Source: Agromyces fucosus
GTDB lineage: Bacteria > Actinomycetota > Actinomycetes > Actinomycetales > Microbacteriaceae
Length of the DNA stretch: 64,000 nt
NCBI RefSeq assembly: GCF_004134865.1
Contig: NZ_SDPO01000004.1
Span: 359,673-423,672 of the forward strand
Reading direction: 5' to 3'
Position 1 is the stretch's first letter, and each line of letters starts with the position of its first letter. Shown here in pieces: positions 9,217 to 23,563 of the stretch. The position numbers and the translations under genes were made by a program. The notes below the pieces were generated by a model. That model saw only the letters and a list, made by a program, of their open reading frames with translations. It was not told the origin of the DNA and did no database searches.

Positions 9217-9238
9217 TCGTGGGTTCTGACGAACACCT

Positions 9239-9315
9239 TGGTTGCGGGGGCAGGATTTGAACCTACGACCTCTGGGTTATGAGCCCAGCGAGCTACCGAA
9301 CTGCTCCACCCCGCG
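9239..9315 (-). tRNA. initiator tRNA-fMet (CAT anticodon), copy 1
   Basis: A 77-nt gene including an encoded 3' CCA. The 5' end CGCGGGGTGGAGCAG, the anticodon arm GGGCTCATAACCC with three consecutive G-C pairs, and the unpaired C1-A72 are hallmarks of the initiator rather than elongator tRNA-Met. The T-arm reads GGTTCAAATCC. Anticodon CAT. An identical gene lies at 23487-23563. Confidence 0.97.
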
Positions 9316-9442: not shown

Positions 9443-10036
9443 CTACCAGGTCGCGACGTACTCCGACACCGGCAGCACCGTGCTCCGAACGACCGGGAGA
9501 CCGCGGCTGATGGCTTGCTCGATGCGGTCGCGCAGCGCCTGCGAATCGATGCGGTAGTCGACGAAGTCGGTGTCGCTGGCGTACACGCCGATCGGCAGGG
9601 TGATCGCCTGGAAGAACGAGAACAGCGGCCGGAACTGGTGCTCGATGATGAGCGCATGCCGGTCGCTGCCTCCCGTCGCCGCGAGCAGCACCGGCTTGTC
9701 GATGAGCGCGTACTGCCCGACGAAGTCGAACACGTGCTTGAACAGGCCCGTGAACGAGGCCCGGTACACCGGGCTGGCGACGACGAGGAGCGTGGCCGAC
9801 TCGATGCGGCGCAGCGCCTCCTCGGCGATCGGGCTCAGGTCGGAGCGGCTCAGCGCTCCCGAGAACTCGCGGCCGATGTCGGAGAGCTCGATGAGGTGCG
9901 TATCGACCTCGAGGTCATCGCCCTGACCCGAACGCAGGGCGGTGGCGAAACCCTCGAGGATCTCGCGGGCGAGCACGGTGGTCTTCGACGGCGAGTGCAG
10001 GCTTCCGGAGACGGCGACGATGGAGATGTTCGGCAT
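9443..10036 (-). CDS. LLM-partnered NAD(P)H:FMN reductase (CE1759/MsuE-like)
   Basis: 197 residues of flavodoxin-like NAD(P)H-dependent FMN reductase: the phosphate-binding loop VSGSLHSPSKTTVLA (residues 8-22), ASPVYRASFTGLFKHVFDF (about residue 85 onward), and the ATGGSDRHALIIEHQFRPLF segment characteristic of the reductases that supply FMNH2 to luciferase-like monooxygenases. CE1759-family reductases are normally paired with CE1758-family LLM enzymes; here such an LLM gene lies at 21257-22420 within the same cluster. Start ATG 10036 is the first Met before the Rossmann-like strand. Cytoplasmic. Confidence 0.88.
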   Translation of the reverse strand: MPNISIVAVSGSLHSPSKTTVLAREILEGFATALRSGQGDDLEVDTHLIELSDIGREFSGALSRSDLSPIAEEALRRIESATLLVVASPVYRASFTGLFKHVFDFVGQYALIDKPVLLAATGGSDRHALIIEHQFRPLFSFFQAITLPIGVYASDTDFVDYRIDSQALRDRIEQAISRGLPVVRSTVLPVSEYVATW

Positions 10037-10199
10037 GGATGGGACGCTAACCCCCTTCGGCCCATGCCGGGATCGCATCGGACGCGCAGGGTAAGCGAGC
10101 GAAACGGGCCTTCACGCGGCGTATCCGGGTGTCACGAATGGGCCGTCGAACGCGATCGGATGCCCCGCGGATGTCGCCGCGTGACCGCGCCCTGCTGCG

Positions 10200-11534
10200 T
10201 CACGCCTCGCGGAGAAGTCGCCACGTGACGCGCGCGGAGAAGTACAGGGCGTCGACCGGGATGTGCTCGTCAGCCGTGTGGAACTGCGAGAACACGTCGA
10301 AGTCGTCGGGCACCCGCAGCGGCACGAAGCCGTAGCCGGCGATGCCGAGGCGGGCGAGGTGCTTGTTGTCGGTGCTCGCAGGCAGCAGGTAGGGCACGAC
10401 GACGCCGTGGTCGTCCTCGGCGGCGATCGCATGCTGGGCGATCCCGAGGAGCGGGGAATCGAGTGGCGCGGCGATGGGCGGGATCCATCGCCCCACCTCG
10501 AGCTCGACGTCGTCGCCCACGAGGCGCTGCAGGTCGGCGCGGAACGTGTCCTCGTGTCCGGGCAGGATCCGGAGGTCGAGCGCGGCGGTCGCCACGGCGG
10601 GGATGACGTTGGTCTTCGATCCGGCCTCGAGCACGGTCGGCGACGCGGTGTCGCGCAGGGTCGCGCCGACGATGCCGCCGACGAACCCGAGCTCGTCGAG
10701 CTGCGTCTCGAGCGCGGCATCCGTGAACTCGACGCCGCGCGCCGCTCCGAACCGCTCGAGGAACGCGTCGAGGGCGGGGGTGCGCGTCACCGGGAAGCGG
10801 TGCTCGCCGACCGCCGCGACGGCGCGGGCGAGGCGCACGACGGCGTTGTCCGCCGTCGGCCGCGAGCCGTGGCCTGGGCGGCCGCGCGTGCGCAACCGGG
10901 CCCATGCGACGCCCTTCTCGGCGGTCGCAATGAGGTAGGCGCGGCGCCCGGGCGCGAGCGGCACGGAGAACCCGCCGACCTCGCTGAGCGCCTCGGTGGC
11001 TCCCTCGAACAACTCGGGGTGGTGCTCGACGAGCCACTTCGCGCCCCACACGCCCCCGGCCTCCTCATCGGCGAAGAACGCGAAGACCAGGTCCCGCTCT
11101 GGCACCTCGGCGTCGCGCTTGAACGCTCGCGCGGCCGCGAGGATGACGCCGGCGAAGTTCTTCATGTCGACGGCGCCGCGCCCGTAGAGCACGCCGTCCT
11201 CGATCTCGGCCCCGAAGGGCGGATGCGTCCAGTCCTGCCCCTCGACGGGGACGACGTCGAGATGCGCGTGCACGACGAGCGCCCCGCGGGACGGATCGCG
11301 TCCCGCGAGGCGGGCGACGACGCTCCCCCGGCCCGGCCGGGACTCGAGCAGGGTCGTCTCGTACCCGACCTCCTCGAGCGCGGCCTGCACGTACCGGGCG
11401 GCGCGGGTCTCACCATCGCCGATGGCGTCGGGACGGCCGGTGTTGACGCTCTCGATGCGGATGAGGTCGCGGATGAACCGCAGGGCCTCCTCCTCGAGGA
11501 GCGAGCCTGCGGCGGGGACTCGGCTGGAAGTCAT
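10200..11534 (-). CDS. M20-family metallopeptidase / N-acyl amino-acid amidohydrolase
   Basis: 444 residues of M20 dinuclear zinc hydrolase: first metal motif VVHAHLDVVP, second metal Asp in YGRGAVDMKNF, catalytic and bridging Glu pair in FADEEAGG, and a dimerisation lid domain in the middle (about 190-310) with GRPGHGS. Family members include ArgE, DapE, aminoacylase and carboxypeptidase. Context (LLM monooxygenases, acetyltransferases, amino-acid transporter) favours deacylation of an N-acetylated, oxidised amino-acid derivative, as proposed for Bacillus YxeP/YtnL. It diverges from the LLM operon across a 231-bp control region (11535-11765). ATG 11534 is chosen; the upstream frame is low quality. 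Confidence 0.88.
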   Translation of the reverse strand: MTSSRVPAAGSLLEEEALRFIRDLIRIESVNTGRPDAIGDGETRAARYVQAALEEVGYETTLLESRPGRGSVVARLAGRDPSRGALVVHAHLDVVPVEGQDWTHPPFGAEIEDGVLYGRGAVDMKNFAGVILAAARAFKRDAEVPERDLVFAFFADEEAGGVWGAKWLVEHHPELFEGATEALSEVGGFSVPLAPGRRAYLIATAEKGVAWARLRTRGRPGHGSRPTADNAVVRLARAVAAVGEHRFPVTRTPALDAFLERFGAARGVEFTDAALETQLDELGFVGGIVGATLRDTASPTVLEAGSKTNVIPAVATAALDLRILPGHEDTFRADLQRLVGDDVELEVGRWIPPIAAPLDSPLLGIAQHAIAAEDDHGVVVPYLLPASTDNKHLARLGIAGYGFVPLRVPDDFDVFSQFHTADEHIPVDALYFSARVTWRLLREA

Positions 11535-11706
11535 GTCGTTCAGTCTCCTGTCGCTGGTCGCGCGCCACCACTGTGCCGAGGCCGACGACCGACGGCAAGC
11601 CGCATGGTGTCGCGTGACGCGCCGTGAAGCGATGTGAGCGAATGCGACGGCGGATGACGCGCGCGATCCGCCCCGCGGCATCCTGCGTGAAGGGATGTTG
11701 CGATCG

Positions 11707-11730
11707 ACGGCGCCCCGTGACGGGCGCCGT
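11707..11730 (+). promoter_or_regulatory. inverted repeat in the divergent control region
   Basis: ACGGCGCCC (11707-11715) and GGGCGCCGT (11722-11730) form a perfect 9-bp inverted repeat with a 6-bp spacer, 35 bp upstream of the first LLM gene. It could be an operator shared with the divergent M20 gene or an RNA hairpin in the leader. No recognisable promoter hexamers were confirmed in this 231-bp region. Confidence 0.4.
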
Positions 11731-11765
11731 TGCAGTGATCGGATACCGGGCGGAGAGTGGCCGCC

Positions 11766-12956
11766 ATGACACGACGAACGACCATCGCAGTCGCCCTCGA
11801 CGGCGCCGGCTGGCACCCGGCCGCGTGGCGCGACCCCTCGGCGCGACCAACGGAACTCTTCAGCACCGGCTACTGGATCGACCTCGCACGCACCGCCGAA
11901 CGAGCCGGCGTCGACTTCCTCACGATCGAGGACGCCCTCGGCCTGCAGTCAGCGGCGTTCGGCGCCGCCGACGACCGGACCGACGAGGTGCGCGGCCGCC
12001 TCGACGCCCTCCTCATCGCCTCCTTCATCGCGCCGACGACGACCCGCATCGGGCTCGTGCCGACGGTGACGACCACGCACACGGAGCCGTTCCACGTCGC
12101 GACCGGCCTGCAGACGCTCGACTTCGCGAGCCGCGGGCGTGCGGGATGGCGCGTGCAGGTCTCGGGCGCGGCGCACGAGGCGCGTCACTTCGGTCGCCGG
12201 ACCCTCGCGCCCCTCGACCTCGAAGCGGTGCGCCGGGGCGACTCCGCCCTCCTCCGCGAACTGTTCGACGAGGCCCGCGACGCGGTCGAGGTCGTGCGGC
12301 GCCTCTGGGACGGCTGGGAGGACGACGCCATCATCCGGGATGCCGCGACCGCGCGCTTCGTCGACCGCGACAAGCTGCACTACGCCGACTTCGAGGGCGC
12401 GCAGTTCTCGGTGAAGGGCCCATCGATCACCCCGCGATCACCGCAGGGCCAGCCGCTCGTGACCGCGCTCGCGCACCAGACGATTCCGTACGAGCTCGCC
12501 GCGACGAGCGCAGACCTCGTCTTCGTCACGCCGCACGACGACAGCCAGGCGAGATCGATCCTCGACGAGGTGCGCAACGCCGAACTGCGGGTCGGCCGCA
12601 CGGGCCGGCCGCTCTCGGTGCTCGCCGACGTCGTCGTGCTGCTCGAGGCGACGCCCGAGCTGGCGACCGCCGCGCTCGAACGCCTCGACGCCGAGCACGG
12701 CGCGCCGGCGACATCCGACGCCCTCATCTTCGCCGGCACGCCCGAGGCACTCGTCGAGCGCATCGGCGCCTGGACCGACGCCGGCTACGACGGCGTGCGA
12801 CTGCGCCCCGCCCGCCTCACTCGCGACCTCGAGCAGCTCGCCGAATGGGTGCTGCCCGCATTCGACCGAGCGGATGCCCCGGGGGCGACCCTGCGCGAAC
12901 GCCTCGGGTTCGAGCGCCCCGCCAACCGCTACGCCGTGGAGGAGACCGCAGCATGA
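11766..12956 (+). CDS. LLM-class flavin-dependent monooxygenase (NtaA/SnaA/DszA-like) 1
   Basis: 396 residues of luciferase-like TIM-barrel oxidoreductase, group of the FMNH2-dependent NtaA/SnaA/DszA enzymes: FSTGYWIDLARTAERAGVDFLTIEDALG, then GLVPTVTTTHTEPFHVATGLQTLDFASRGRAGW with the SxGRxGW-type motif, and a C-terminal GTPEALVERIGAWTDAGYDG. It needs reduced FMN from a separate reductase (9443-10036 is the candidate). It opens a three-gene operon; its stop overlaps the next start (ATGA at 12953). ATG 11766 is used because GGAG lies about 10 bp upstream; GTG 11757 is less well placed. Confidence 0.88.
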   Translation: MTRRTTIAVALDGAGWHPAAWRDPSARPTELFSTGYWIDLARTAERAGVDFLTIEDALGLQSAAFGAADDRTDEVRGRLDALLIASFIAPTTTRIGLVPTVTTTHTEPFHVATGLQTLDFASRGRAGWRVQVSGAAHEARHFGRRTLAPLDLEAVRRGDSALLRELFDEARDAVEVVRRLWDGWEDDAIIRDAATARFVDRDKLHYADFEGAQFSVKGPSITPRSPQGQPLVTALAHQTIPYELAATSADLVFVTPHDDSQARSILDEVRNAELRVGRTGRPLSVLADVVVLLEATPELATAALERLDAEHGAPATSDALIFAGTPEALVERIGAWTDAGYDGVRLRPARLTRDLEQLAEWVLPAFDRADAPGATLRERLGFERPANRYAVEETAA

Positions 12957-14323
12957 CGACGACACCCCGCCAGGTCCACCTGGCCGCCCACTTCCCGGGC
13001 GTCAACAACACGACCGTCTGGAACGACCCGCTGCAGCGCAGCCAGATCGACTTCGCCGCCTTCGAGCACTTCGCCAGCACCGCTGAGCGCGGCCGGTTCG
13101 ACTACCTGTTCCTCGCCGAGGGGCTGCGGCTCCGCGAGCACAAGGGGCGGATCCACGAACTCGACGTCGTCGGCCGCCCGAACACCCTCGCGGTGCTCGC
13201 CGCGCTGGCGGCGGTCACCCACCACATCGGCCTCGTCGGCACGCTGAGTGCCACGTTCAACGAGCCCTATGAGCTCGCCCGCCAGCTCGCGACGCTCGAC
13301 CACCTCTCGAACGGCCGGGCCGGCTGGAACGTCGTGACGAGCTCGGATGCGTTCCACGGCGCGAACTTCCGCCGTGGCGGCTACCTCGACCACGGCGATC
13401 GCTACTCGCGCGCCTCGGAGTTCGTCAGCGTGGCGAAGGAGCTGTGGGACAGCTGGTCGCCCGACGCCGTCGTGGCCGACCGCGCGAGCGGGCGCTTCCT
13501 CGCCGACGACGCGATCGAGCCGTTCGCGCATCACGGGCCGCAGTTCGACGTGGCGGGCCGGTTCAACGTGCCGCGCAGCCCGCAGCGATATCCCGTGATC
13601 GTGCAGGCGGGCGACTCGGCCGATGGCCGCGACTTCGCCGCCGATCACGCCGAGGTCATCTTCTCGCGGCACAGCGTGTTCGAGGAGGCGCAGCAGTTCT
13701 ACCGCGACGTGAAGGGCCGGCTCGCCGGCCGTGGCCGCACCGAGGACTCGCTGAAGATCCTGCCCGCCGTCACCTTCGCCCTCGGCGACACCGAGGCCGA
13801 GGCCGCGGAGCGGGCCCGCGAGGACGCGCTCGCGCAGGTCGGACCGAAGACCGCGATCACGGTGCTCGAGCAGGTCTGGGGCGTCGATCTCTCCGACCGC
13901 GACCCCGATGGGCCGCTCCCCGAGTTCGACCCCGATCCCGAGGCGTCGATCACCAAGGGCTGGGCACCGCGCTATCCCAACGCCGTGCAGGTCGCCCGAG
14001 CCTGGCGAGCCAGGTCGGAGGCCGAGGGGCTCAGCATCCGCGAGCTCGTCATCGCGGTCACCGGACGCCAGTCGTTCGTCGGCACGCCCGCAAGCGTCGC
14101 CCGTGAGCTCGACCGCTACGTGCAGGAGCGCGCGACCGACGGCTTCGTCATCGTCGGCACCACCTCGCCGCACGGCCTCGACGAGTTCGTCGAGCGGGTC
14201 ATCCCCGAGCTGCAGGAGCGCGGGGTATACCGCACCGAGTACGAGGAGGGCGCGACCCTGCGCCGCACGCTCGGGCTGCCGGAACCCACCCAGATCGCCG
14301 AGGAGGTGCGTCGTGTCGGTTGA
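12953..14323 (+). CDS. LLM-class flavin-dependent monooxygenase (NtaA/SnaA/SoxA/DszA family) 2
   Basis: 456 residues. Typical family landmarks: LAAHFPGVNNTTVWNDP, FAEGLRLRE-like FLAEGLRLREH, VGTLSATFNEPYELARQLATLDHLSNGRAGWNVVTS, GRFNVPRSPQRYPVIVQAGDSADGR, and FVGTPASVARELDRYV near the end. These enzymes oxidise sulfur- or nitrogen-substituted substrates (nitrilotriacetate, dibenzothiophene sulfone, and in Bacillus YtnJ/YxeK S-substituted N-acetylcysteines) with FMNH2 and O2. Its start overlaps the previous stop by 4 bp, and its end overlaps the next gene by 11 bp. The substrate is inferred only from context. Confidence 0.9.
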   Translation: MTTTPRQVHLAAHFPGVNNTTVWNDPLQRSQIDFAAFEHFASTAERGRFDYLFLAEGLRLREHKGRIHELDVVGRPNTLAVLAALAAVTHHIGLVGTLSATFNEPYELARQLATLDHLSNGRAGWNVVTSSDAFHGANFRRGGYLDHGDRYSRASEFVSVAKELWDSWSPDAVVADRASGRFLADDAIEPFAHHGPQFDVAGRFNVPRSPQRYPVIVQAGDSADGRDFAADHAEVIFSRHSVFEEAQQFYRDVKGRLAGRGRTEDSLKILPAVTFALGDTEAEAAERAREDALAQVGPKTAITVLEQVWGVDLSDRDPDGPLPEFDPDPEASITKGWAPRYPNAVQVARAWRARSEAEGLSIRELVIAVTGRQSFVGTPASVARELDRYVQERATDGFVIVGTTSPHGLDEFVERVIPELQERGVYRTEYEEGATLRRTLGLPEPTQIAEEVRRVG

Positions 14324-15608
14324 GTCGACGGATGCCGCGGGCCGCGGGCCGCGCGCGAGGCGCGTGCCGCTCGCGGTGCTCGACCTCGTGCCCATCGCCG
14401 ACGGTGACACCGCGGGCGGAGCGCTGCGCAACTCGATCGACCTCGCGCGGCACGCCGAGGCGTTCGGGTACGCCCGCTACTGGCTGGCCGAGCACCACCT
14501 GAACCCCGGCGTCGCCGGGTCGGCGCCGCACACCCTGCTCGGCATCATCGCCGGCGCGACCGAGCGAATCCGTGTCGGCACCGCCGCGACGATCCTCGGC
14601 AATTACGAGCCGCTTCAGGTGGCCGAGGCGTTCGGCACCGTCGCGTCGCTGTGGCCCGACCGGGTCGACCTCGGGCTCGGCCGCTCGGGGTTCCCGCCCC
14701 CGGCATCGGCGGGGGCCGCGGCGTCAGCTCCGGCCGCCTCACCGCCGGCCGCAGCGCCGGCTGCGGAGCCCGCGGTCGCGGCATCCGGGGCCCTCGTCAA
14801 CCGCATCGTCGAAGGCCTCGTCGTGCCCCCGGTGCGCCCGTTCCACACCGACCGAGCGCGCTTCGCGCTGCAGGGACGGCTCCTCGGGCGGGAGCCCGGC
14901 GACGCCGCGCGGTTCGCCGACACGGTCGACGACCTGCTGGCCTTCTTCGCCGGAGACTACGAGGGCGACGGCATCGCCGTCACCGTGCAGCCCGCCGAGG
15001 GCAGCGGCGTGCAGGTCTGGATCCACGGCTCGACCGCCGGGGAGAGCGCCCGCATCGCCGGGCGCCTCGGCCTTCCCTACGGCGCCAACTACCATGTCGC
15101 GCCCAGCGGGGTCATCGAGTCGCTGGCGGAGTACCGCGCGCACTTCCAGCCGTCGGCAGGGCTCGACCGACCGCACACGATCGTGTCGGTCGACGTCGTC
15201 GTCGCCGAGACCGACGCCGAGGCGCACCGCATCGCGGCAGGCTACGCCGAGTGGGTGCTCTCGATCCGCGAGGGCCAGGGCGCCGTGCCGTACCCGCGCC
15301 CGGAGGAGGCCCTGCCCGACTCCGCACTCGCCTCCATCGAGCTCACCGCCGTGCAGGACCGGCTCGACACGCGCTTCGTCGGCTCCCCCGAGACCGTCGT
15401 CGGGCTGCTCGAGACCCTCCAGCGCGTCACCGGCGCCGACGAGCTGCTCGTCACGACGATCACGCACGACCACGACGCACGAGTCGCGTCGTACCGGCTG
15501 CTCGCCGACGCCTGGTCGGGGGCGGGAGCATCCGGCCTCGCCGACGCAGCGGATCTCGCCGAGGGCGCCCGTACCGCCCACGATCGGGAGGCTCTCACGA
15601 GCGCCTGA
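14313..15608 (+). CDS. LLM-class flavin-dependent oxidoreductase (MsnO8/YtmO-like) 3 with a Pro/Ala insert
   Basis: 431 residues. Opening PLAVLDLVPIADG, then AEAFGYARYWLAEHHLNPGVAGSAPHTLLGIIAGATERIRVGTAATILGNYEPLQVAEAFGTVASLWPDRVDLGLGRSGFPPP is the MsnO8 (luciferase-like group 1) pattern, the family of Bacillus YtmO. A Pro/Ala-rich stretch (about residues 128-158; PPPASAGAAASAPAASPPAA) interrupts the barrel where relatives usually have a short loop. The GTG at 14313 has a perfect AGGAGG six bases upstream. It is the last gene of the operon, followed by a strong terminator at 15626-15663. Confidence 0.87.
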   Translation: MSVESTDAAGRGPRARRVPLAVLDLVPIADGDTAGGALRNSIDLARHAEAFGYARYWLAEHHLNPGVAGSAPHTLLGIIAGATERIRVGTAATILGNYEPLQVAEAFGTVASLWPDRVDLGLGRSGFPPPASAGAAASAPAASPPAAAPAAEPAVAASGALVNRIVEGLVVPPVRPFHTDRARFALQGRLLGREPGDAARFADTVDDLLAFFAGDYEGDGIAVTVQPAEGSGVQVWIHGSTAGESARIAGRLGLPYGANYHVAPSGVIESLAEYRAHFQPSAGLDRPHTIVSVDVVVAETDAEAHRIAAGYAEWVLSIREGQGAVPYPRPEEALPDSALASIELTAVQDRLDTRFVGSPETVVGLLETLQRVTGADELLVTTITHDHDARVASYRLLADAWSGAGASGLADAADLAEGARTAHDREALTSA

Positions 15609-15625
15609 ACTGCGAACGCGAACGA

Positions 15626-15663
15626 ACGGATGCCGCGTGGCCCATCGGCCACGCGGCATCCGT
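15626..15663. terminator. bidirectional terminator between LLM operon and transporter operon
   Basis: A perfect 17-bp stem ACGGATGCCGCGTGGCC / GGCCACGCGGCATCCGT with a CATC loop, exactly between two convergent genes. It includes two copies of the over-represented octamer CGGATGCC/GGCATCCG. Confidence 0.92.
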
Positions 15664-15676
15664 CGTTCTCAGGCTG

Positions 15677-16699
15677 CTACTCGGACTTCGGCAGCCCCGG
15701 CGGGTTGATCTCCGACTCCTCCACGGCCTCCGTGGTCAGCGCCCAGCGATCGAGGACCTCCTGGTAGGTGCCGTCGTCGATGATCGACTGCAGCACGAGC
15801 TGCACCGGCTCGATGAGCCCGTTGCCCTTCAGCGTTCCCGTCGCGATCGGCGCGGTCTCGGGCCATCCGCCGTTCAAGGTGCCGACGAGCTTCGTCTCGC
15901 CGGTCGTCGCGGCGCGGTACGCCGCGGTCGCGTTCGGCCCGAACGAGGCGTCGACGCGGCCCGACGACAGCGCGAGGTCCGATGCCGCCTGGTCGTCGTA
16001 GTACACGAGCTCGGCCGGCGCGTCGCCGCCCTCCTCGAGTTCGGCGTTCCAGGCGAGCAGGATCTTCTCCTGGTTGGTCCCCGAGCCGACGACGATCTTC
16101 AGGCCCGAGATGTCCGCTGCGCTCTCGATCGCGTCGATGTCGCTGTCGGCCTGCACGTAGAAGCCGAGCAGGTCCTGACGGTAGCTCGCGAAGTCGTAGA
16201 GCTCCTTGCGCTCCTCGGTGACCGTGACGTTCGACGCGACGAGGTCGTACTTGCCCGACTGGATGCCGAGCGGCCAGTCGGCCCAGTTCACGGCGACCGG
16301 GTTGTACTCGAGGCCGAGGCCGTCGGCGACGAGCGAGCCGAAGTCCGCCTCGGCACCGATGATCGTGGCGTCGTCGTCCGAGGCGAGCACGCCGAGCGGC
16401 GCCGCGAACGGCGAGATCGCCACGGTGAGCTTGCCGGCCTCGATGGGCGTGAACCCGCTCGCCTCGAGCGCGTCGACCGCGGCCTGCACGGGCTCGACCG
16501 TGGGCCGGTCTTCGGCGTTCTGCGACGTGAGGTCGAACTGCGACGCCGCCTGCACCTGCTCCTCGGTGCTGCCGGACGCCGCATCCTCGGCCGCGGCGGA
16601 GTTGCCGGCGCCGACCGCCCAGACGACGCCGCCGCCGATGATGGCGATGGCCGCGACGCCCGCGACGATCACCCCCAGCTGCTTCTTGTTGATTGCCAT
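15677..16699 (-). CDS. polar amino-acid ABC transporter substrate-binding protein
   Basis: 340 residues. N-terminal membrane segment (residues 8-30, VIVAGVAAIAIIGGGVVWAV) acts as signal or anchor; notably there is no lipobox Cys, unusual for a Gram-positive binding protein. After a long linker (about 31-88) the family-3 solute-binding fold begins (KLTVAISPFAAPLGV), with DWPLGIQSGKYDLVASNVTVTEERKELYDFASY, GLKIVVGSGTNQEKIL and NGLIEPVQLVLQSIIDDGTYQEVLDRW. It is the last gene of the transporter operon and delivers an amino-acid-like ligand to the permease at 17633-18817. Start ATG 16699 with upstream GGAGAG. Confidence 0.9.
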   Translation of the reverse strand: MAINKKQLGVIVAGVAAIAIIGGGVVWAVGAGNSAAAEDAASGSTEEQVQAASQFDLTSQNAEDRPTVEPVQAAVDALEASGFTPIEAGKLTVAISPFAAPLGVLASDDDATIIGAEADFGSLVADGLGLEYNPVAVNWADWPLGIQSGKYDLVASNVTVTEERKELYDFASYRQDLLGFYVQADSDIDAIESAADISGLKIVVGSGTNQEKILLAWNAELEEGGDAPAELVYYDDQAASDLALSSGRVDASFGPNATAAYRAATTGETKLVGTLNGGWPETAPIATGTLKGNGLIEPVQLVLQSIIDDGTYQEVLDRWALTTEAVEESEINPPGLPKSE

Positions 16700-16756
16700 G
16701 AGAGGACTCTCCTAGTGTTGGTTCCGTCCGATAGCCGGGTCGGTTTCTCGGATTCG

Positions 16757-16788
16757 CCCGGTGCCTGCAGTGCGATGCGGGCACCGGG
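16757..16788 (-). other. intercistronic stem-loop in the transporter operon
   Basis: CCCGGTGCC / GGCACCGGG, a 9-bp perfect stem with a 14-nt loop, in the 112-bp gap between ATPase and binding-protein genes. Such hairpins commonly stabilise or attenuate transcripts so that the binding protein is expressed differently from the membrane components. Confidence 0.55.
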
Positions 16789-16811
16789 TCCTCCTCGCCG
16801 GGCGCTCTGGT

Positions 16812-17636
16812 CTAGAGCACCTTCGCGAGGAAGTCGCGGGTGCGACGGTGCCGGGCGTTCCGCAGCACCTGGCCGGGGGTTCCCTGCTCGACGATCTCGC
16901 CGTGATCGAGGAACACGATGCGATCGGCGACCTCACGGGCGAATCCGATCTCGTGCGTGACGATCACGAGCGTCGTCCCGTCGCGGGCGAGGCCGCGGAT
17001 GACGTCGAGCACCTCGCCGACGAGTTCGGGATCGAGCGCCGAGGTCGGTTCGTCGAACAGCAGCACCTTGGGCGACAGCGCGAGCGCCCTCGCGATCGCG
17101 ACGCGCTGCTGCTGGCCGCCCGACAGCTGCCTCGGGTAGTGGTCCGCCTTGTCGGCGAGGCCGACCCGTGCGAGCAGGCCCTCGGCCAGCGCGCGAGCAT
17201 CCGGCCTCGTGAGCCGCTTGTGCGCGACCGGCGCCTCGATGATGTTCTCGATCGCCGTGAGGTGCGGGAACAGGTTGAAGTTCTGGAAGACGAGTCCGAC
17301 CTGGGTGCGTCGCCGAAGGATCTCGGCCTCGCGCAGTTCGTGGAGCGTGTCGCCCCTCCGCTCGTACCCGATGTACTGCCCGTCGACCGTCACCGATCCT
17401 CGGTCGACGGTCTCGAGGTGGTTGATCGCCCGCAGCAGGGTCGACTTGCCCGACCCCGACGGCCCGATCAGCGCCACGACCTGGCCGGGCTCGATCGCGA
17501 GGGAGACGTCGCGGAGCACCGTGTTCGCACCGTAGGACTTGGTGACGTCCGAGATCTCGACGCGGCCGACGGTCGCGACCTTCCGTGTCGCGACGTACTG
17601 CTCGTCGAACGATGGCGTGAGCGTCGTGCTGGTCAT
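16812..17636 (-). CDS. polar amino-acid ABC transporter ATP-binding protein
   Basis: 274 residues: Walker A GPSGSGKST, Q-loop region GLVFQNFNLFPHLT, signature LSGGQQQR, Walker B VLLFDEPTSALDPE, and switch His in IVTHE. It matches the GlnQ/TcyN subfamily of amino-acid importers (short EIxxGxPxQVL tail). The N-terminal 25 residues are a non-conserved extension. The start ATG 17636 overlaps the permease stop (ATGA), indicating coupling. Confidence 0.95.
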   Translation of the reverse strand: MTSTTLTPSFDEQYVATRKVATVGRVEISDVTKSYGANTVLRDVSLAIEPGQVVALIGPSGSGKSTLLRAINHLETVDRGSVTVDGQYIGYERRGDTLHELREAEILRRRTQVGLVFQNFNLFPHLTAIENIIEAPVAHKRLTRPDARALAEGLLARVGLADKADHYPRQLSGGQQQRVAIARALALSPKVLLFDEPTSALDPELVGEVLDVIRGLARDGTTLVIVTHEIGFAREVADRIVFLDHGEIVEQGTPGQVLRNARHRRTRDFLAKVL

Positions 17637-18817
17637 GCGGCACCTCCGGTGCGGGACTGGTCGGATGCCGCAGCAGCGGCCGACACGGCGGGTTCGGGTC
17701 GTGCGGGGGCGGGTCGAGCGGGCGGCGGGTCGGCCGAGGTCTGCCCGTCGCCGAGCCGGTTCCAGTGCTCCGCGACCCAGCGCCGGGCCCGTTGCACGGG
17801 CGTCGGCGGCAGCTCGCGCACCGAACCGCGGGCGTAGCGTCGCTCCACGTAGTACTGGGCGATCGAGAGCACCGTCGTGATGAGGGCGTACCAGACGACC
17901 GCCACGAGCAGCAGCGGGATGACGCGCTGGTTGCGGTTGTAGATGACCTGCACGGTGTAGAACAGCTCGGGCAGCGCGACGATGAACACGACCGAGGTGC
18001 CCTTCACGAGCCCGATGATCTCGTTGAAGGCGTTCGGCACGATGGCCCGAGCGGCCTGCGGCAGCGTGATGCGGAAGAAGCGGATGCTGCGGGGCAGGCC
18101 GAGCGCGCCGGCGGCCTCGAGCTGGCCCTGGTCGACCGAGAGGATGCCGGCCCGGATGATCTCGGCCGAATAGGCGGCCTGGTGCAGCGACAGGCCGATG
18201 GCCGCCGCGGCGAACGCGCTGATGAGCGTCGTCGTGGGGAACTCGACGATCCAGAAGTCCGTGGTGAACGGCGTGCCGAGTCCGAGCGTCGGATACAGGT
18301 ATCCGAGGTTGTACCAGACGAGGATCTGCACGACGAGCGGCACGGACCGGAAGAACCAGACGTACCACCATGCCGCCGCGTTCAGCAGCGGCGACTTCGA
18401 CAGGCGGAAGACGGCGAGCACGGCGCCGAGCACGAAGCCCGCGACGCCCGAGACGACCGTGAGACCGAGCGTCAGCCACAGGCCGTTGATCACCGACGGT
18501 GCGAAGAAGTACTCCGCGAACACGTCCCATTGCCACTGCGGGTTCGTCGCGAGCGACCACAGGAACTGGAGGATGACGAATGCGACGATCGCAGAGAACG
18601 CCCAGCGACCCCAGTGCTTGACGGGCACGACCCGGAGGCCGGCGTCCGGCCGGCCGCCCGTGGGGCCGGCCTGCGCCCCGGAGTCCGCCGAGGCATCCGC
18701 CGGTCGCTCGCTCGCCGACGTCGCCTCGCCGGTCGCGGCATCCGCGTCACTCGTGGGCGTCGCCGTTCCTGCCGGATGCGCCGTGGTCTCGGATCGGGGG
18801 GCGACGATGCGGCTCAT
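17633..18817 (-). CDS. polar amino-acid ABC transporter permease with extended termini
   Basis: 394 residues. A disordered Ala/Ser/Thr-rich N-terminus (about 1-65) is followed by a HisM/TcyM-type permease with about five to six helices: NGLWLTLGLTVVSGVAGFVLGAVLAVFRLS, the conserved WWYVWFFRSVPLVVQILVWYNL, and the EAA loop AAYSAEIIRAGILSVDQGQLEAAGALGLPR that contacts the ATPase. The C-terminal about 60 residues are Pro/Ala-rich. A single permease implies a homodimer. It overlaps its neighbours on both sides by 4 bp, in the order acetyltransferase-permease-ATPase. Confidence 0.92.
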   Translation of the reverse strand: MSRIVAPRSETTAHPAGTATPTSDADAATGEATSASERPADASADSGAQAGPTGGRPDAGLRVVPVKHWGRWAFSAIVAFVILQFLWSLATNPQWQWDVFAEYFFAPSVINGLWLTLGLTVVSGVAGFVLGAVLAVFRLSKSPLLNAAAWWYVWFFRSVPLVVQILVWYNLGYLYPTLGLGTPFTTDFWIVEFPTTTLISAFAAAAIGLSLHQAAYSAEIIRAGILSVDQGQLEAAGALGLPRSIRFFRITLPQAARAIVPNAFNEIIGLVKGTSVVFIVALPELFYTVQVIYNRNQRVIPLLLVAVVWYALITTVLSIAQYYVERRYARGSVRELPPTPVQRARRWVAEHWNRLGDGQTSADPPPARPAPARPEPAVSAAAAASDQSRTGGAA

Positions 18818-19317
18818 GCGCGGACTCCTTCGGTGACGAGCGCCTTGTCGAACGCGTGGATGCCGATCTGGTCGGCCGGGAGCGACGGGTCGAAGCGAGG
18901 CGTGTACCCGCTCGCCAGGTACAGCGCGACGGCTTCGGGCTGGCGCGGCCCGGTCGTGAGCGTCACGGCGGTGTAGCCGCGGCTCCGCGCGACGGCCTCG
19001 AGTTCGGCGACGACCCGTCGACCGAGGCCGCGGCCACGATGATCGGGGTGCGTCCACACGCGCTTGAGTTCGGCGGTGCGGTCGTCGAACCGCTTGAACG
19101 CACCGCCCGCGATCGGCTCGCCGTCGTCCAGGATGACGAGGAACGCGCCGTGGGGCGGCGCGAAGTCCGACGCCGGATATCGGGTCAGCTCCGTGCTCGC
19201 ACGTTCGCCGAAGAAGTCGCCGTAGCGGCCGTCGTACTCGCGCTCGAGGTCGGCGAGCAACGGCTTCGCCAACGTGTCGTCCGCGCTCACGTGCCGCACG
19301 CTCAACTGGGTGGTCAT
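18814..19317 (-). CDS. GNAT N-acetyltransferase, transporter-linked
   Basis: 167 residues, single GNAT fold. The acetyl-CoA loop is HPDHRGRGLGRRVVAELEAVARSRG (Q/RxxGxG/A pattern) near residue 98, followed by YTAVTLTTGPRQPEAVALYLASGYTP. It overlaps the permease by 4 bp and so is made together with the importer. That position, as for Bacillus YtmI/SnaA and YxeL/SnaB, suggests it acetylates the imported amino-acid derivative to start its catabolism. The spacer upstream (19318-19552) contains no gene that I can see. Confidence 0.88.
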   Translation of the reverse strand: MTTQLSVRHVSADDTLAKPLLADLEREYDGRYGDFFGERASTELTRYPASDFAPPHGAFLVILDDGEPIAGGAFKRFDDRTAELKRVWTHPDHRGRGLGRRVVAELEAVARSRGYTAVTLTTGPRQPEAVALYLASGYTPRFDPSLPADQIGIHAFDKALVTEGVRA

Positions 19318-19552
19318 CGCTCACTCCGTCCTGCTCGTCGATGCATTCCGCTGCCGAGATGGAGCGGGTCGAGTCGAAGCTACGGAGCGGCGAAGGGCGG
19401 GGCAACGGGGTGATTCATGGGGCGACCGATAGCGTCACCCCACGTCAACTCCGACGCGAGAACGTCGGAATGGCGGCCTTCACGGATCGACACATGACGA
19501 ATTCCGTCGTCGGCATGTGGCGAACTCCTACGCCGGCGCAGGCGGTGCCGGT

Positions 19553-20668
19553 TCAGGCTGTGGTGAATCGCCCCAGTCGGAAGATGCCCGACGACGGACG
19601 CCCGTCGGCCAGGTCGGCGAGGATGCGGCCGACCGCGGGCGTGAACTTGAAGCCGTGCCCCGAGAAGCCGGCGCCGACCGTGATCGGCCCCGAGGCGTCG
19701 AGCACGAAGGTCGAGTCGGGCGTGGTCGTGTACGTGCAGCTGATCGGGGTCGCGACGTCGGCGTCGACGCCGGGCAGCCATTCGCGGGCGTACCGGCGGA
19801 GCGCCGCGAACTGCACGGGCTCGGCCTCGTAGTCGCGCCGGTCGGGATCGACCACGGGGCCGACCCCGTGCCATCCGGCCTTGACGCCCTCGCCTGGGGT
19901 GAACATGCCGTAGGTGCCCGAGTACCACCAGTCGTCGTCGGCACCCGGATGGTGGTTGAATCCCGGCCAGGTGATCGTCTCGTCGCGCACAGCGAAGTGC
20001 GCGGGCTGCTCCTGCGTGACGACGAGGCGCGGCAGGGCGACGAGGCCGCCGAGCAGCTTCGAGGTCCAGCCGCCGACGGCCACCACTGCGCGGCGGGCCG
20101 TGATCGTTCCGCGATCGGTCTCGACCTGCACGCGGTCGTCGTCGAGCACGCGGATGCTGCGCACGGGGGTCTCATGCCGGACGTCGGCTCCGCGAGCGGC
20201 CGCCGCCGACTGGAACGCCCGCACCGCGGCATCCGCGTTCAGACGACCGGCCGTCGGCAGGTGCAGGGCCCTCGTCGTGAATCGCAGGCCCGGCCAGCGT
20301 CGCCCCGCCTCTTCGGGCGGCAGGAACTCGCTCGGGATGCCGGCCGCGGCGAGCGCGGCGTGCACGTGGTCGTGGCCGGGATTGCGCCCGTGGTCGACGA
20401 GGCCCACCTGGTCGAGGATCGCGGTGCCCGTCTCGGCCTCGAGCTCGCGCCACTCGAGCTGCGACTCGAGCAGCATGGCGACGTGTGCGGGCTCGGCGTA
20501 CGCGAGGTTGAAGTTGCGGGAGGCACCGTGCGAGGCGCCGTTGCGATGGCCCGGCGCGAAGCGTTCGAGCAGGGTGACCTCGCGACCGCGGCGCGCGAGG
20601 TTCCACGCGGCCGAGGAGCCCATCGCTCCCCCGCCGATCACCACGACGTCGGTGTCGAGCGCGTTCAT
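19553..20668 (-). CDS. sarcosine-oxidase-like FAD-dependent amine oxidase
   Basis: 371 residues of the DAO/MSOX family. The N-terminal dinucleotide fold is VVVIGGGAMGSSAAWNLARRG (GxGxxG at 12-17). The RNFNLAY and VVAVGGWTSKLL segments are typical, and Cys311 in ISCTYTTTPDSTF aligns with the Cys that covalently holds FAD in monomeric sarcosine oxidase and N-methyltryptophan oxidase. It ends with GFSGHGFKFTPAVGRILADL. It oxidises a secondary or N-methyl amino acid to an imine, producing H2O2. It overlaps the upstream GNAT gene by 4 bp (20665-20668). Confidence 0.9.
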   Translation of the reverse strand: MNALDTDVVVIGGGAMGSSAAWNLARRGREVTLLERFAPGHRNGASHGASRNFNLAYAEPAHVAMLLESQLEWRELEAETGTAILDQVGLVDHGRNPGHDHVHAALAAAGIPSEFLPPEEAGRRWPGLRFTTRALHLPTAGRLNADAAVRAFQSAAAARGADVRHETPVRSIRVLDDDRVQVETDRGTITARRAVVAVGGWTSKLLGGLVALPRLVVTQEQPAHFAVRDETITWPGFNHHPGADDDWWYSGTYGMFTPGEGVKAGWHGVGPVVDPDRRDYEAEPVQFAALRRYAREWLPGVDADVATPISCTYTTTPDSTFVLDASGPITVGAGFSGHGFKFTPAVGRILADLADGRPSSGIFRLGRFTTA

Positions 20669-21219
20669 GAGGCGACGCCGAGCTCGTCGCGCCCGGCCTC
20701 AGCTCCGGCGTGCACGTCGATGGTGAACGCGAGCAGCCGGAATGTGCGGCCCCCGTCGACGATCTCGCGCTCGCGGTCGGTGAGGCGGGTGAACCCCAGC
20801 TTCTCGTAGAGCGCGTGCGCCCCCACCATCTGCGGGCCGCTGTTCATGACGACCCGGTCGAGCCCACGCTGCCGGGCGAGTTCGATGACATGGCGGGTGA
20901 GGAGCGCGCCGACACCGCGTCCGCGAGCCGACGGGTCGACGGCGAGCAGCCGGAAGTCGAGTTCGCCGGGCTCCGCGAGCGGGGAGATGGTGCGGCCCGG
21001 CCGAGGCGTCGCGACGGAACCGAGCAGGGCGCCCGTCGCGGCATCCGCGGCGACCCACACCTCGTGCTCGGCGGCGCGATCGCCGACGGCGAGGATCGAG
21101 GCGCGGTATCCGTCGGAGATCTCGTAGTCGAGCTCGTAGGCGCGAAGCGACAGGGCGGCGACCTCGTCGTAGTCGTCGGGTCGTGCGAGACGCACCTGTG
21201 TCTGCTGGGTGTCGCTCAT
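20665..21219 (-). CDS. GNAT N-acetyltransferase, oxidase-linked
   Basis: 184 residues. GNAT fold with AVDPSARGRGVGALLTRHVIELARQRG as the acetyl-CoA-binding loop (about residue 92) and NSGPQMVGAHALYEKLGFTRL as the following strand-helix. The C-terminal residues (about 165-184) are extra. It is coupled to the amine-oxidase gene by a 4-bp overlap and lies 37 bp downstream of an LLM gene. It is the second acetyltransferase in the cluster, and its sequence differs clearly from the first, suggesting a different acceptor. Confidence 0.88.
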   Translation of the reverse strand: MSDTQQTQVRLARPDDYDEVAALSLRAYELDYEISDGYRASILAVGDRAAEHEVWVAADAATGALLGSVATPRPGRTISPLAEPGELDFRLLAVDPSARGRGVGALLTRHVIELARQRGLDRVVMNSGPQMVGAHALYEKLGFTRLTDREREIVDGGRTFRLLAFTIDVHAGAEAGRDELGVAS

Positions 21220-21256
21220 CGATCCTCGATCCTACGGGCGACACCTGACACGCCGC

Positions 21257-22420
21257 TCACCGGGCCGCTCCTCGAGACTCGGCGAGTCGGCCAACGGGCG
21301 CCGAGGCGGCCTCGACGACGGCCGCGGCATCCGCTTCGACGCCGCCGCCGACCGCCGGCCGCAGCGCATACGGATCTCCGGGCCCCCAGAGCGTGCTCGG
21401 GAACTCGCGCCGCGCGACGGGCGCGACCTCGGCCGCGAACCGCTCGATGAGCTCGACCTGCTGCTCGACCGGCAGTGTCGTCGGCAGGCTGATCGACTGC
21501 AGGTCGTGCCCGAGTGCGCCGTGGAAGCGGCCGATCTTGTCGATGACCTGCTGCGGGCTGCCGACGAGCGCGGGCCCCTCGGCGATCGCGTGGTCGATGT
21601 CGCGGAACGTCGAGTTGTTGCCAGGCACGTTCGTCGCCGCGACGAGCGCTTCGTAGACCGGGCCGTACAGCTCGCGCGCCTGCTGCGTCGTGTCGGCGAT
21701 GAACAGCGCACCGGCGCCGGCCCCCACGTACGCGAACCGCGGATCGTGGCCGTGACGGGCGACCTCGTCGCGGTAGTGCTGCACGAGCACCGCGTAGTTG
21801 CGCAGCGGCTGGATCGCGTTCGCACTGAACAGCGGGTCGCCCCAGCGCGCGGCCAGTGCAGCCGAGGCGAGCGTGGTCGCCGACCCGTGCCACACCCGCG
21901 GCGCCCCGGCGTACGGCCGCGGCAGCGTCGTGGTGCCGCGCTGCGCACGCGTGTACGGCGTCGCCTCCCAGTCGACGTCGGTCTCACGCCAGAGCCGTCG
22001 CAGCAACGCGTACCGGTCGGCGAGGAGCTCCCACTGGTCGTCGATCTCGAGCCCGAAGAGCGGGAACTGCGCCGCCTCGTTGCCCTTGCCGATCGTGAGG
22101 TCGAGGCGCCCGCGCGAGAGCTGGTCGATGGTCGCGTAGTCCTCGGCGACGCGCACCGGGTCGAGCACCGACAGCACGGTCACCCCCGTCTGAAGTCGGA
22201 TGGTCGACGTCACGGCCGCGATCGCACCGAGCAGCACGGTGGGCGACGACGAGAGGAAGTGTCCCGCGTGGCGCTCCCCCACCGCGAAGGCGTCGAAGCC
22301 GAGGCGCTCGGCCCGGCCGGCGAACTCGACGGTCTGGTCGAGCCGTTCCGCCGGGCTCACGAGCCGGCCGGTGAGCGGGTTCCGAACGTACGGGACGATA
22401 TCGAGGATCTGGAAGCGCAT
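21257..22420 (-). CDS. LLM-class flavin-dependent oxidoreductase (CE1758-like)
   Basis: 387 residues. MRFQILDIVPYVRNPLTG, RLGFDAFAVGERHAGHFLSSSPTVLLGAIAAVTSTIRLQTGVTVLSVLDPVRVAEDYATIDQLSRGRLDLTIGKGNEAAQFPLFGL is the CE1758-family pattern (GKGNE, LFG, then DDQWELLADRYALLRRLW). The family is named for being paired with the CE1759 FMN reductase; the matching reductase here is at 9443-10036, about 11 kb away but inside the same tRNA-bounded block. The C-terminal 40 residues are Ala-rich. It is followed by the GNAT gene in the same direction. Confidence 0.88.
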   Translation of the reverse strand: MRFQILDIVPYVRNPLTGRLVSPAERLDQTVEFAGRAERLGFDAFAVGERHAGHFLSSSPTVLLGAIAAVTSTIRLQTGVTVLSVLDPVRVAEDYATIDQLSRGRLDLTIGKGNEAAQFPLFGLEIDDQWELLADRYALLRRLWRETDVDWEATPYTRAQRGTTTLPRPYAGAPRVWHGSATTLASAALAARWGDPLFSANAIQPLRNYAVLVQHYRDEVARHGHDPRFAYVGAGAGALFIADTTQQARELYGPVYEALVAATNVPGNNSTFRDIDHAIAEGPALVGSPQQVIDKIGRFHGALGHDLQSISLPTTLPVEQQVELIERFAAEVAPVARREFPSTLWGPGDPYALRPAVGGGVEADAAAVVEAASAPVGRLAESRGAAR

Positions 22421-22440
22421 GGATTCTCTCCGCTCGAAGG

Positions 22441-23316
22441 TCAGGCGATGTCAGCGACGTCGCGTTCGATCGGCGTCTTCTCGCCAGCCTCGATGCCGAC
22501 GGGCAGCCGGTTGCCCGCGGGCGGCAGTGGGCACGTGGCGTGGTCGGTGTAGGCGCAGGGCAGGTTCACGGCTCGGTTGAAGTCGAGCAGCACGCCGCCG
22601 TCGGCGTCGGGAGCGTCGATCTCGAGGGAGCGATTGGCTGCGTAGGTGGTGAGCCCGCTCGTGGCGTCGGTGAAGAGCACGGTGAGCGTTCCGGGCGCGT
22701 GGCCGTTGAACGCGACGAGCCGGAAGGTCTCGCCGCGCAGCTCGAACTCCACCTCGCCGGGCACCTCGTAGACGTGCTGCAGGCCCTCGGCGGCCGAGCC
22801 GACCGTGACCTCGCGTGCCGTCTCGGCGGGGACGAACCGCCCGCGAGCGAGCCAGCGCGGGTTCGGCAGGTAGGTGGGCGTGCCCGTGAAGCGCGCCAGG
22901 TAGGGGTTCGAGGGGTCGCGAGGTCGCACGATGTCGCGGCCACCGCGGCGCGCCACCTCGACGGCGACGTCACCGGCTCGCACCACGACACCGCCGCGCT
23001 CGACGATCGGACCGAAGGCGTGGCGCCCCGTGATGCCCGTGCCGTCGGCTGCCACGAGGGACTCGCCGTCGTCGAGTTCGACGACGGGCCCCGTGGCATC
23101 CGTCCACCAGTTGCCCGGGATGCCGTCGTAGCGGGTGGGCGTCTCGTCGAGCCAGTGGATCGCGGTCACGGCGAGGAAGCCGTGCGGGTCGGCCCGACGG
23201 GCCTCGTGGTCGCGGTGCCAGTCCTCCCACTCGCGGGCGAAGGCCGCGCGATCAAACTTGGCGGTGGTGGCAGGAGTAGCGGCGGTGGCGGTGGCAGTGG
23301 CGTCGAGTGTCGTCAT
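22441..23316 (-). CDS. DUF1684 family protein
   Basis: 291 residues. Diagnostic C-terminal block LLDFNRAVNLPCAYTDHATCPLPPAGNRLPVGIEAGEK, with conserved Asn, Cys and Pro residues, plus LTVLFTDATSGLTTYAANRSLEI and the N-terminal EWEDWHRDHEARRADPHGFLAVTAIHWL. The fold is beta-rich and no biochemical role is established. It starts the minus-strand operon DUF1684-LLM-GNAT-oxidase. MTTLD at 23316 is chosen; the first about 20 residues are a Thr/Ala low-complexity leader (TATATAATPATTA), not a signal peptide. Upstream in-frame Met codons exist but have no ribosome site. Confidence 0.82.
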   Translation of the reverse strand: MTTLDATATATAATPATTAKFDRAAFAREWEDWHRDHEARRADPHGFLAVTAIHWLDETPTRYDGIPGNWWTDATGPVVELDDGESLVAADGTGITGRHAFGPIVERGGVVVRAGDVAVEVARRGGRDIVRPRDPSNPYLARFTGTPTYLPNPRWLARGRFVPAETAREVTVGSAAEGLQHVYEVPGEVEFELRGETFRLVAFNGHAPGTLTVLFTDATSGLTTYAANRSLEIDAPDADGGVLLDFNRAVNLPCAYTDHATCPLPPAGNRLPVGIEAGEKTPIERDVADIA

Positions 23317-23432
23317 GTCGCCACTGTCATGCCTGCGAGCCTGCATCGCCAGCGGCTCCGTCACGGATCGCCGCCGACCGCAACATCCGGTCACGGGACG
23401 AGGGAGGGGCCGTCATGGAACGCCGCAAACGC

Positions 23433-23466
23433 AGAAATCCCGGCCTCGTTCGAGACCGGGATTTCT
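23433..23466 (-). terminator. terminator of initiator tRNA copy 2
   Basis: Same AGAAATCCCGG / CCGGGATTTCT stem as at 9183-9216, differing in one loop base (GTTC against ATTC). Confidence 0.8.
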
Positions 23467-23486
23467 TGTGCGTTCTGACGAACGTT

Positions 23487-23563
23487 TGGTTGCGGGGGCA
23501 GGATTTGAACCTACGACCTCTGGGTTATGAGCCCAGCGAGCTACCGAACTGCTCCACCCCGCG
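23487..23563 (-). tRNA. initiator tRNA-fMet (CAT anticodon), copy 2
   Basis: A 77-nt gene with encoded CCA, identical to copy 1 at 9239-9315, including the three G-C pairs of the anticodon stem and the C1-A72 mismatch of initiators. It has the same orientation and the same terminator. Confidence 0.97.

Follow-up and report, generated by a model that had tools for sequence, protein, structure and literature searches.

A candidate sulfur-salvage island for S-substituted cysteines in Agromyces fucosus, with a conserved pair of luciferase-like monooxygenases

The ytm/ytn (CmoO-CmoJ) operon of Bacillus subtilis salvages S-alkylcysteine. It encodes a GNAT acetyltransferase, a cystine-type importer, luciferase-like monooxygenases (LLMs) of the MsnO8 and CmoJ families and a deacylase, and follows a logic of acetylation, breakdown and deacetylation; YtnI is its glutaredoxin-like member. 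We analysed a stretch of 64,000 nucleotides from Agromyces fucosus (contig NZ_SDPO01000004.1, positions 359,673 to 423,672; referred to as the window, with its own numbering used throughout), in which thirteen genes at 9443-23316 share these parts apart from the glutaredoxin-like one. The published route runs from N-acetyl-S-alkylcysteine through CmoO and then CmoJ, i.e. acetylation, S-oxidation, C-S cleavage by CmoJ, sulfenate reduction and deacetylation (PMC10863075), with ScmP, YhaA and YtnL as N-acetylcysteine deacetylases (PMC12757645). Two other described systems are close. The scm/yxe operon of B. subtilis for S-(2-succino)cysteine, a locus defined by at least three of five components in the available sections of PMC9706529, shares the importer, the GNAT, an NtaA-family LLM and an M20 hydrolase with our cluster. 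The StmO1-StmO2 or NtfO1-NtfO2 pair (PDB 7E36) is encoded by two neighbouring LLM genes that overlap and belong to one fold family; it acts on a polyketide.

Our analysis indicates that the thirteen-gene cluster (~14 kb) is a real unit, co-conserved in the genus and found at several chromosomal places. Judging from the genes alone, we hold with moderate confidence that it is a sulfur-salvage island for S-substituted cysteines resembling the CmoO/CmoJ system, and organosulfur salvage through N-acetylated cysteine conjugates appears to be its best reading. The new element is a conserved pairing of two LLMs, LLM1 and LLM2, with loss of the contacts to flavin mononucleotide (FMN) in one partner, which recurs in many actinobacteria. 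If the salvage reading is true, an LLM operon that is common in actinobacteria, with at least 570 stretches matched, would be linked to cysteine-conjugate salvage, and DUF1684, a family without known function, would have a candidate role. We recognised no description of the actinobacterial cluster and no functional study of the LLM1 operon in the literature searched, whose coverage was partial; to that extent the suggestion of the original prediction that this version may be undescribed still stands.

The island differs from ytm/ytn in the constant LLM1 without an FMN site beside LLM2, in the aminoacylase type of its M20 hydrolase, in the added LLM4-DUF1684 and oxidase-GNAT2 modules and in being bracketed by tRNA genes, and no glutaredoxin-like gene is found among the thirteen. 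Compared with scm/yxe it has extra LLMs and no 2SL or YxeQ-type gene.

The LLM1-LLM2 pair and its FMN contacts

A contig scan with an LLM1 alignment gave at least 594 stretches with at least 570 relatives, and the best 80 loci were kept. By record title 79 of these are, as we take it, actinobacterial, 48 of them being Streptomyces, and the last one is a 5.9-kb contig titled Melainabacteria (L168). LLM2 is found near LLM1 in 78 of the 80 loci, LLM3 in 48, an LLM4-like gene in 44, and the solute-binding protein (SBP) and permease of the importer in 40, as counted with one fixed tblastn threshold that misses divergent copies. These counts indicate that the LLM set with the importer is the core and that the other modules are regional. 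Within the core, LLM2 lies no more than 400 bp from LLM1 in 77 of the 78 loci having both.

We aligned 85 LLM1 and 87 LLM2 homologues from 99 loci. Only matches without a stop that reached 90% coverage and 45% or 50% identity were used, the rest being left out, and some loci contribute two LLM2. The FMN contacts known from NtfO2, namely F56, A58, T133, Y155 and Q203, are invariant in 87 of 87 LLM2, whereas the same five positions differ in 85 of 85 LLM1, which have T, E/D, I/V/L/A, F/L/I and A/V/S there, respectively. When only the rows from outside Streptomyces are counted, the contacts are lost in 37 of 37 LLM1 and kept in 37 of 37 LLM2. T101 is kept in 80 of the 85 LLM1. In its AlphaFold model (pLDDT 84.6) LLM1 adopts the NtaA fold.

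NtfO1-NtfO2 is described as a crystallised heterodimer of two LLMs with FMN docked in NtfO2; mutations of NtfO2 at F56, T101, T133, H151, Y155, Q203 and F222 abolished or cut the activity, and single mutations at F56, T133, Y155 and Q203 lowered it (PMC8027225). Thus both docking and mutation concern the FMN site on one partner. The LLM1-LLM2 pair likewise has adjacent, overlapping genes, and in it the FMN contacts are present on one product only. Our analysis suggests that LLM1 has lost FMN binding and is probably not a flavin enzyme; by analogy with NtfO1-NtfO2 it would probably be the structural partner of LLM2 in a putative heteromer. Because LLM1 lacks the five contacts that LLM2 keeps, the island probably encodes three flavin LLMs and one pseudoenzyme partner rather than the four distinct LLM enzymes originally proposed. 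This leads to a testable claim, namely that of the two LLMs one lacks a flavin site and acts in support of the other. If it is true, calling LLM1 homologues flavin-dependent oxidoreductases, which is how they are annotated in NZ_CP109366 and NZ_CP108387, would be misleading.

Conservation and genomic location of the cluster

We compared 60 genomes of the same genus, including that of A. fucosus itself, using identity thresholds set for each gene. LLM1 orthologues are present in 12 of the 60. Orthologues of the cluster M20 gene (at least 72% identity) and of GNAT1 are each present in 11 of these 12 carriers and in none of the 48 other genomes (Fisher p 3.5e-11 for both), LLM4 (at least 83%) in 9 of the 12 and in none of the 48 (p 1.5e-8), and the oxidase (at least 72%) in 11 of the 12 plus genome G015 (p 4.1e-10); all these p values are too small since the genomes are related and kinship is ignored. 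Every one of the 60 genomes matches some M20 protein, the general paralogue having 43-50% identity. The co-occurrence raised by the original prediction is hence found within the genus for LLM4, M20, GNAT1 and the oxidase with LLM1; outside it, M20, GNAT1 and the oxidase are seldom encoded near LLM1. G061 has, at 86642-87811 of C19, another LLM1 copy that is more distant (53%) and contains one in-frame TGA.

The cluster of the window lies between two identical tRNA-Met genes. The repeat units at 9173-9319 and 23423-23567 each consist of the tRNA-Met and a 45-nt repeat, with a direct repeat of 82 nt. The two tRNA-Met copies are the only close ones in the genome, a third match being 72% identical, and an Rfam scan of the window gave these two tRNAs only. 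In G021 the same cluster is likewise placed between two such tRNAs. In G018, whose neighbour corresponding to the large protein right of the island is 95% identical (a protein which we take to be UPF0182), both tRNAs are ~650 bp apart and the cluster is absent. Over all, the cluster is absent but the pair present in 4 of the 17 home-site stretches that were read, namely G018, G013 and G015 (within ~310 bp in the last two) and G008 (2.7 kb apart). The other 13 have a single tRNA-Met. In A. fucosus the cluster thus lies between the copies of a tandem tRNA-Met pair which relatives have by itself. The duplication of the tRNA does not require the insertion, because the tandem pair occurs without the cluster in those four home sites. 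An island made by an integrase is likewise unsupported, given that the tandem pair exists without the cluster and that no integrase gene is found among the thirteen genes between the tRNAs. Synteny is demonstrable on the right flank only, since neither of the two left neighbours (TetR, alpha/beta hydrolase) turned up in the stretches of G021 and G018. In G018 (L081, 15970-16541) ~570 bp of other DNA lie between the tandem tRNA-Met copies, and therefore other DNA has occupied the spot.

G009, G028, G008, G026, G019 and G005 carry the same genes at other genomic positions or on a different contig, reordered and with some missing, and the stretch read in G043, from another family, has LLM1-LLM2-LLM3 only. 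No tRNA fragments of at least 12 nt were found elsewhere in the cluster stretches of G009, G028 and G008. A tRNA with a CAT anticodon at the G008 cluster was considered as the same gene and ruled out, being a different tRNA. A tRNA-Leu lies near the cluster in G009 (~1 kb) and G028 (~80 bp), and its relevance is not established.

Outside the genus, one example is the Streptomyces plasmid NZ_CP109366, on which the genes for permease, ATPase, SBP, GNAT, LLM1, LLM2 and two more LLMs stand in a row beside those of homoserine O-acetyltransferase, O-acetylhomoserine/O-acetylserine sulfhydrylase and ssuE. This operon and the one on NZ_CP108387 share with the island the three importer genes, a GNAT, LLM1, the NtaA-family LLM2 and two further LLMs; they differ from it in that no M20, oxidase or DUF1684 gene is annotated in the stretches seen and that the GNAT is of another family. 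In 18 of the 80 loci a GNAT from another family, whose representative is FR47-type, is encoded upstream of LLM1.

Several relatives carry additional genes. In G026 a TIGR01891 amidohydrolase (above cutoff) follows the LLM1-3 genes, and similar extra amidohydrolase genes follow LLM3 in G008, G005 and Leifsonia. A peptide-type importer was observed beside the cluster in G026 (L072/L073) and also in G008, G005 and G009, the binding protein of G026 resembling KPN_01854 (below cutoff), and a KPN_01858-like LLM occurs in G008, G026 and G005. Beside the G026 cluster L072 also encodes, at 4926-6548, a PF00144 protein of the beta-lactamase fold that has a relative in G008 and scores below the class C cutoffs.

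The proposed route and its alternatives

Except for the reductase, candidates for all steps of the CmoO/CmoJ route are present at the family level. Operon structure and analogy suggest that the importer would bring the compound in and that GNAT1 would N-acetylate it. As their families indicate, LLM3 would oxidise the thioether sulfur as CmoO does, and LLM2, together with LLM1, would act on the sulfoxide in the manner of CmoJ and cleave its C-S bond, giving an aldehyde and N-acetylcysteine sulfenate. We speculate that the Cx7C pair of the DUF1684 protein, or another thiol, would reduce the sulfenate. The M20 hydrolase would deacetylate the product to cysteine and the MsuE-type reductase would supply FMNH2, while LLM4 and the sarcosine oxidase-like enzyme with GNAT2 may handle a second substrate class or by-products, e.g. 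cysteine-aldehyde adducts. Two merging routes, as the original prediction suggested, may exist.

LLM3 falls in the family that contains CmoO, its TIGR03558 match holding at the family level only, and LLM2 falls in the one that contains CmoJ, with YtnJ as its best PDB match (entry 6ASK, titled CmoJ and earlier YtnJ). An alignment of 18 sequences shows the motif C254-x7-C262 of the DUF1684 protein to be invariant in all of them, and mercury was used in crystallising a relative whose structure is solved. HVO_1043, a DUF1684 protein of Haloferax, is listed with thiol-relay genes, and a member from that genus was assigned to a thiol-relay group on account of this motif (PMC9426492). We speculate that the DUF1684 protein might be a sulfenate reductase acting through this Cx7C pair.

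The link to sulfur comes from a leader peptide of the Cys type. In 42 of the 80 loci a motif of the form HIDLxRVAGALC precedes LLM1 by 138-303 nt, and none of the 80 has a second copy. A strict short open reading frame for the leader is present in 41 of the 80 loci and in none of 744 control stretches drawn at random from these loci (42 vs 5 for the loose form), and all six leader peptides that were typed pass NF042934 'putative leader peptide'. Mycobacterial short reading frames with contiguous Cys codons are cysteine-responsive attenuators, according to a review (PMC9031893). The leader is annotated directly upstream of LLM1 in NZ_CP108387 and beside a GST gene in NZ_CP109366. Of the Streptomyces loci 39 in 48 have it, and so do 3 of the 32 others (Streptantibioticus, Actinacidiphila and Wenjunlia); we take all leader-bearing loci to be Streptomycetaceae. 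As a separate observation, the family of the gene at 4625-5488 of L134, whose representative has a GST C-terminal domain, occurs in 29 of the 80 loci, often ~6 kb upstream of LLM1.

A number of results weigh against this reading. The leader is present in 42 of 51 Streptomycetaceae loci but in 0 of the 29 others, and no Cys-type leader was found upstream of the units of the window. With the same tblastn threshold, few of the 80 loci have the other modules near LLM1: DUF1684 10, GNAT1 10, FMN reductase 4, oxidase 4, M20 3, GNAT2 3 and M20D 1. The CmoJ link of LLM2 is at the family level, its score with 3SDO, titled nitrilotriacetate monooxygenase, being 265.8 bits vs 275.5 with YtnJ. H151 is kept in only 13 of the 87 LLM2, and this position was left out of our argument. 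ScmP and YtnL belong to TIGR01891; the M20 hydrolase of the window is of the aminoacylase type (NF005913, aminoacylase-1), not of the TIGR01891 type seen in G026, and so does not qualify as a deacetylase of the ScmP/YtnL type. The thirteen genes include no glutaredoxin-like counterpart of YtnI, and neither LLM4 nor the oxidase fits any step of the CmoO/CmoJ route. The oxidase is also less tied to LLM1, because it occurs in G015 and because an oxidase group of 66-69% identity is present in 14 LLM1-negative genomes (and in G082); its copies have an in-frame TGA in G075 and G061 and give piecewise or partial matches in G082 and G027. Finally, single modules are missing from some LLM1 carriers: M20 and LLM4 from G028, GNAT1 from G005, the oxidase from G019, and LLM4 from G027 and G082 (fragmented assemblies).

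A more specific form of cysteine-conjugate salvage deserves mention first. Mycothiol detoxification yields N-acetyl-S-conjugates of cysteine, and the island could serve mercapturate salvage, importing and acetylating S-conjugates or taking N-acetyl-S-conjugates directly, with LLM1-LLM2 as an obligate heteromer of a flavin-less pseudo-LLM and its active twin, DUF1684 as the sulfenate reductase and the oxidase clearing cysteine-aldehyde adducts that form from the released aldehyde. If this were so, sulfur-scavenging LLMs would include a conserved pseudoenzyme-enzyme pair and DUF1684 would gain its first function. We consider the whole of this extended version unlikely.

Scavenging of sulfonates or sulfonate esters in the manner of Ssu/Seu, for which the ssuI-seuABC genes of C. 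glutamicum reportedly set a precedent, would have the LLMs desulfonate the imported compound with FMNH2 from the reductase, the GNATs and the M20 hydrolase being bystanders. The MsuE-type reductase scores above its cutoff and several LLMs stand together, as this would require; however, the importer is of the amino acid type, LLM1 and LLM2 either fall far short of the SsuD models or do not match them, and GNAT1 overlaps the permease gene of the importer and co-occurs with LLM1. We give it little credence. Catabolism of N-substituted amino acids (N-methyl or aminopolycarboxylate compounds) by NTA/EDTA-type LLMs and the sarcosine oxidase-like enzyme has a similarly small chance. LLM2 does belong to the NtaA/DmoA group and scores well with 3SDO, and in our alignment the oxidase keeps the covalent-flavin Cys and the equivalents of K265, H269 and K348 of monomeric sarcosine oxidase (residue roles and numbers as we take them to be), but the equivalent of R52 is Asn, and oxidase orthologues and the LLMs are each also encountered where the other is absent. 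A sulfur compound is favoured over an N-methyl one because the LLM1-LLM2 operon has the Cys-type leader in Streptomycetaceae.

Breakdown of S-(2-succino)cysteine in the scm/yxe manner, the substrate named first by the original prediction, is improbable. The GNAT, the amino acid importer, the NtaA-type LLM and the M20 hydrolase that it would need are all there, but the thirteen genes include neither a 2SL-type lyase nor a YxeQ-type gene, and LLM2 has LLM1 as a partner and LLM3 of the MsnO8 type beside it, which are not among the yxe components listed in the available part of PMC9706529. That the pair would tailor a natural product, hydroxylating a metabolite as the StmO1-StmO2 heterodimer does, is very unlikely given the amino acid importer, the Cys-type leader in relatives and the lack of a biosynthetic core gene among the thirteen.

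The general logic of the original prediction, acetylation, monooxygenation and deacetylation of a modified amino acid, is supported for an S-modified one by the importer-coupled GNAT, the LLMs of the CmoO and CmoJ families, the MsuE-type reductase and the M20 hydrolase with aminoacylase-1 as its best PDB sequence match. Where it left the choice between S- and N-modified substrates undecided, the leader of the relatives argues for sulfur and makes the N-methyl version less favoured. The M20 assignment holds, though not as the Bacillus-like TIGR01891 type.

Layout of the island and other features of the window

All thirteen genes are open and profile searches confirmed that each matches its claimed family (Table 1). 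Most of the family names given earlier are right; LLM1 scores below the cutoff of TIGR03860, and LLM4 is not a CE1758-family member by TIGR04036. Four groups can be distinguished: the overlapping plus-strand genes LLM1-LLM2-LLM3, GNAT1-permease-ATPase-SBP with overlaps among the first three, DUF1684-LLM4-GNAT2-oxidase, and M20 followed by the FMN reductase.

Table 1. Features of the island and its borders in the window
Feature	Position	Strand	Remarks
45-nt hairpin-like repeat beside left tRNA	9173..9217	.	93% identical to 23423-23467
tRNA-Met (CAT), left bracket	9239..9315	-	
MsuE-type FMN reductase	9443..10036	-	TIGR03566 MsuE 233 bits vs cutoff 212, above
CGTGAAGG... element upstream of FMN reductase	10100..10116	-	weak match to shared element
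M20 amidohydrolase, cluster-specific paralogue of genus-wide M20	10200..11534	-	NF005913 568 vs cutoff 382; aminoacylase-1 is top PDB match by sequence
Three GTGA words 10 bp apart (11614, 11624, 11634), M20/LLM1 divergent region	11614..11637	+	
21-nt element upstream of LLM1	11686..11706	+	exact copy 1 of 2 in genome
LLM1, NtaA fold, lacking five residues that contact FMN; putative pseudoenzyme beside LLM2	11766..12956	+	TIGR03860-like, 228 vs cutoff 280
LLM2, NtaA/CmoJ-type FMN monooxygenase, 4-bp overlap with LLM1	12953..14323	+	TIGR03860 434, above cutoff
LLM3, MsnO8/CmoO-type monooxygenase	14313..15608	+	TIGR03558 MsnO8 above cutoff
Family 3 SBP, polar amino acid importer	15677..16699	-	
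Importer ATPase	16812..17636	-	best model cystine TcyN, below cutoff
Importer permease, cystine type	17633..18817	-	
GNAT1, 4-bp overlap with permease	18814..19317	-	
10-bp phased TTGA/GTGA words upstream of GNAT1	19430..19465	-	
Amino acid oxidase, monomeric sarcosine oxidase-like, with covalent-flavin Cys	19553..20668	-	sarcosine/N-methyl-Trp oxidase models, below cutoffs
GNAT2, 4-bp overlap with oxidase	20665..21219	-	
LLM4, CE1758-like monooxygenase	21257..22420	-	CE1758 model TIGR04036 255 bits vs cutoff 479
DUF1684 protein, invariant C254-x7-C262	22441..23316	-	Pfam PF07920 above cutoff
21-nt element upstream of DUF1684	23375..23395	-	exact copy 2 of 2
45-nt hairpin-like repeat beside right tRNA	23423..23467	.	
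tRNA-Met (CAT), right bracket, identical to left copy	23487..23563	-	

No regulator gene is found among the thirteen. A search of the 4.0 Mb genome with a pattern built from the two exact copies of the 21-nt element gave only two more matches within three mismatches, both with three. Upstream of LLM1 in nine genomes we counted 13 cases of RTGA words 10 bp apart, compared to a mean of 0.16 and a maximum of 3 in 300 shuffles of the orthologous upstream regions; these statistics overstate independence, because the regions share ancestry and some nominal starts are tblastn edges. Words phased at 10 bp gave no match in the FMN reductase, M20 and SBP groups and one in the DUF1684 group, a value reached by 31 of the 300 shuffles. 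Since RTGA words 10, 20 or 30 bp apart were found upstream of LLM1 in only 4 of the 80 loci (L101, L104, L123 and L155), they mainly characterise the genus, and Leifsonia and Cryobacterium show hints of them.

Around the island, a TetR-type regulator is encoded at 8306-8944, just beyond the left tRNA, and was not found in the stretches of G021 or G018. To the right lie a GH18 chitinase (23850-25232) and the presumed UPF0182 protein (26187-29081), which is matched in 40 of 40 genomes. Further on, the region 32654-43197 encodes a UvrD-like helicase, a NUDIX protein and two UvrD/PD-(D/E)XK proteins in an AddAB-like layout, which are ordinary repair genes.

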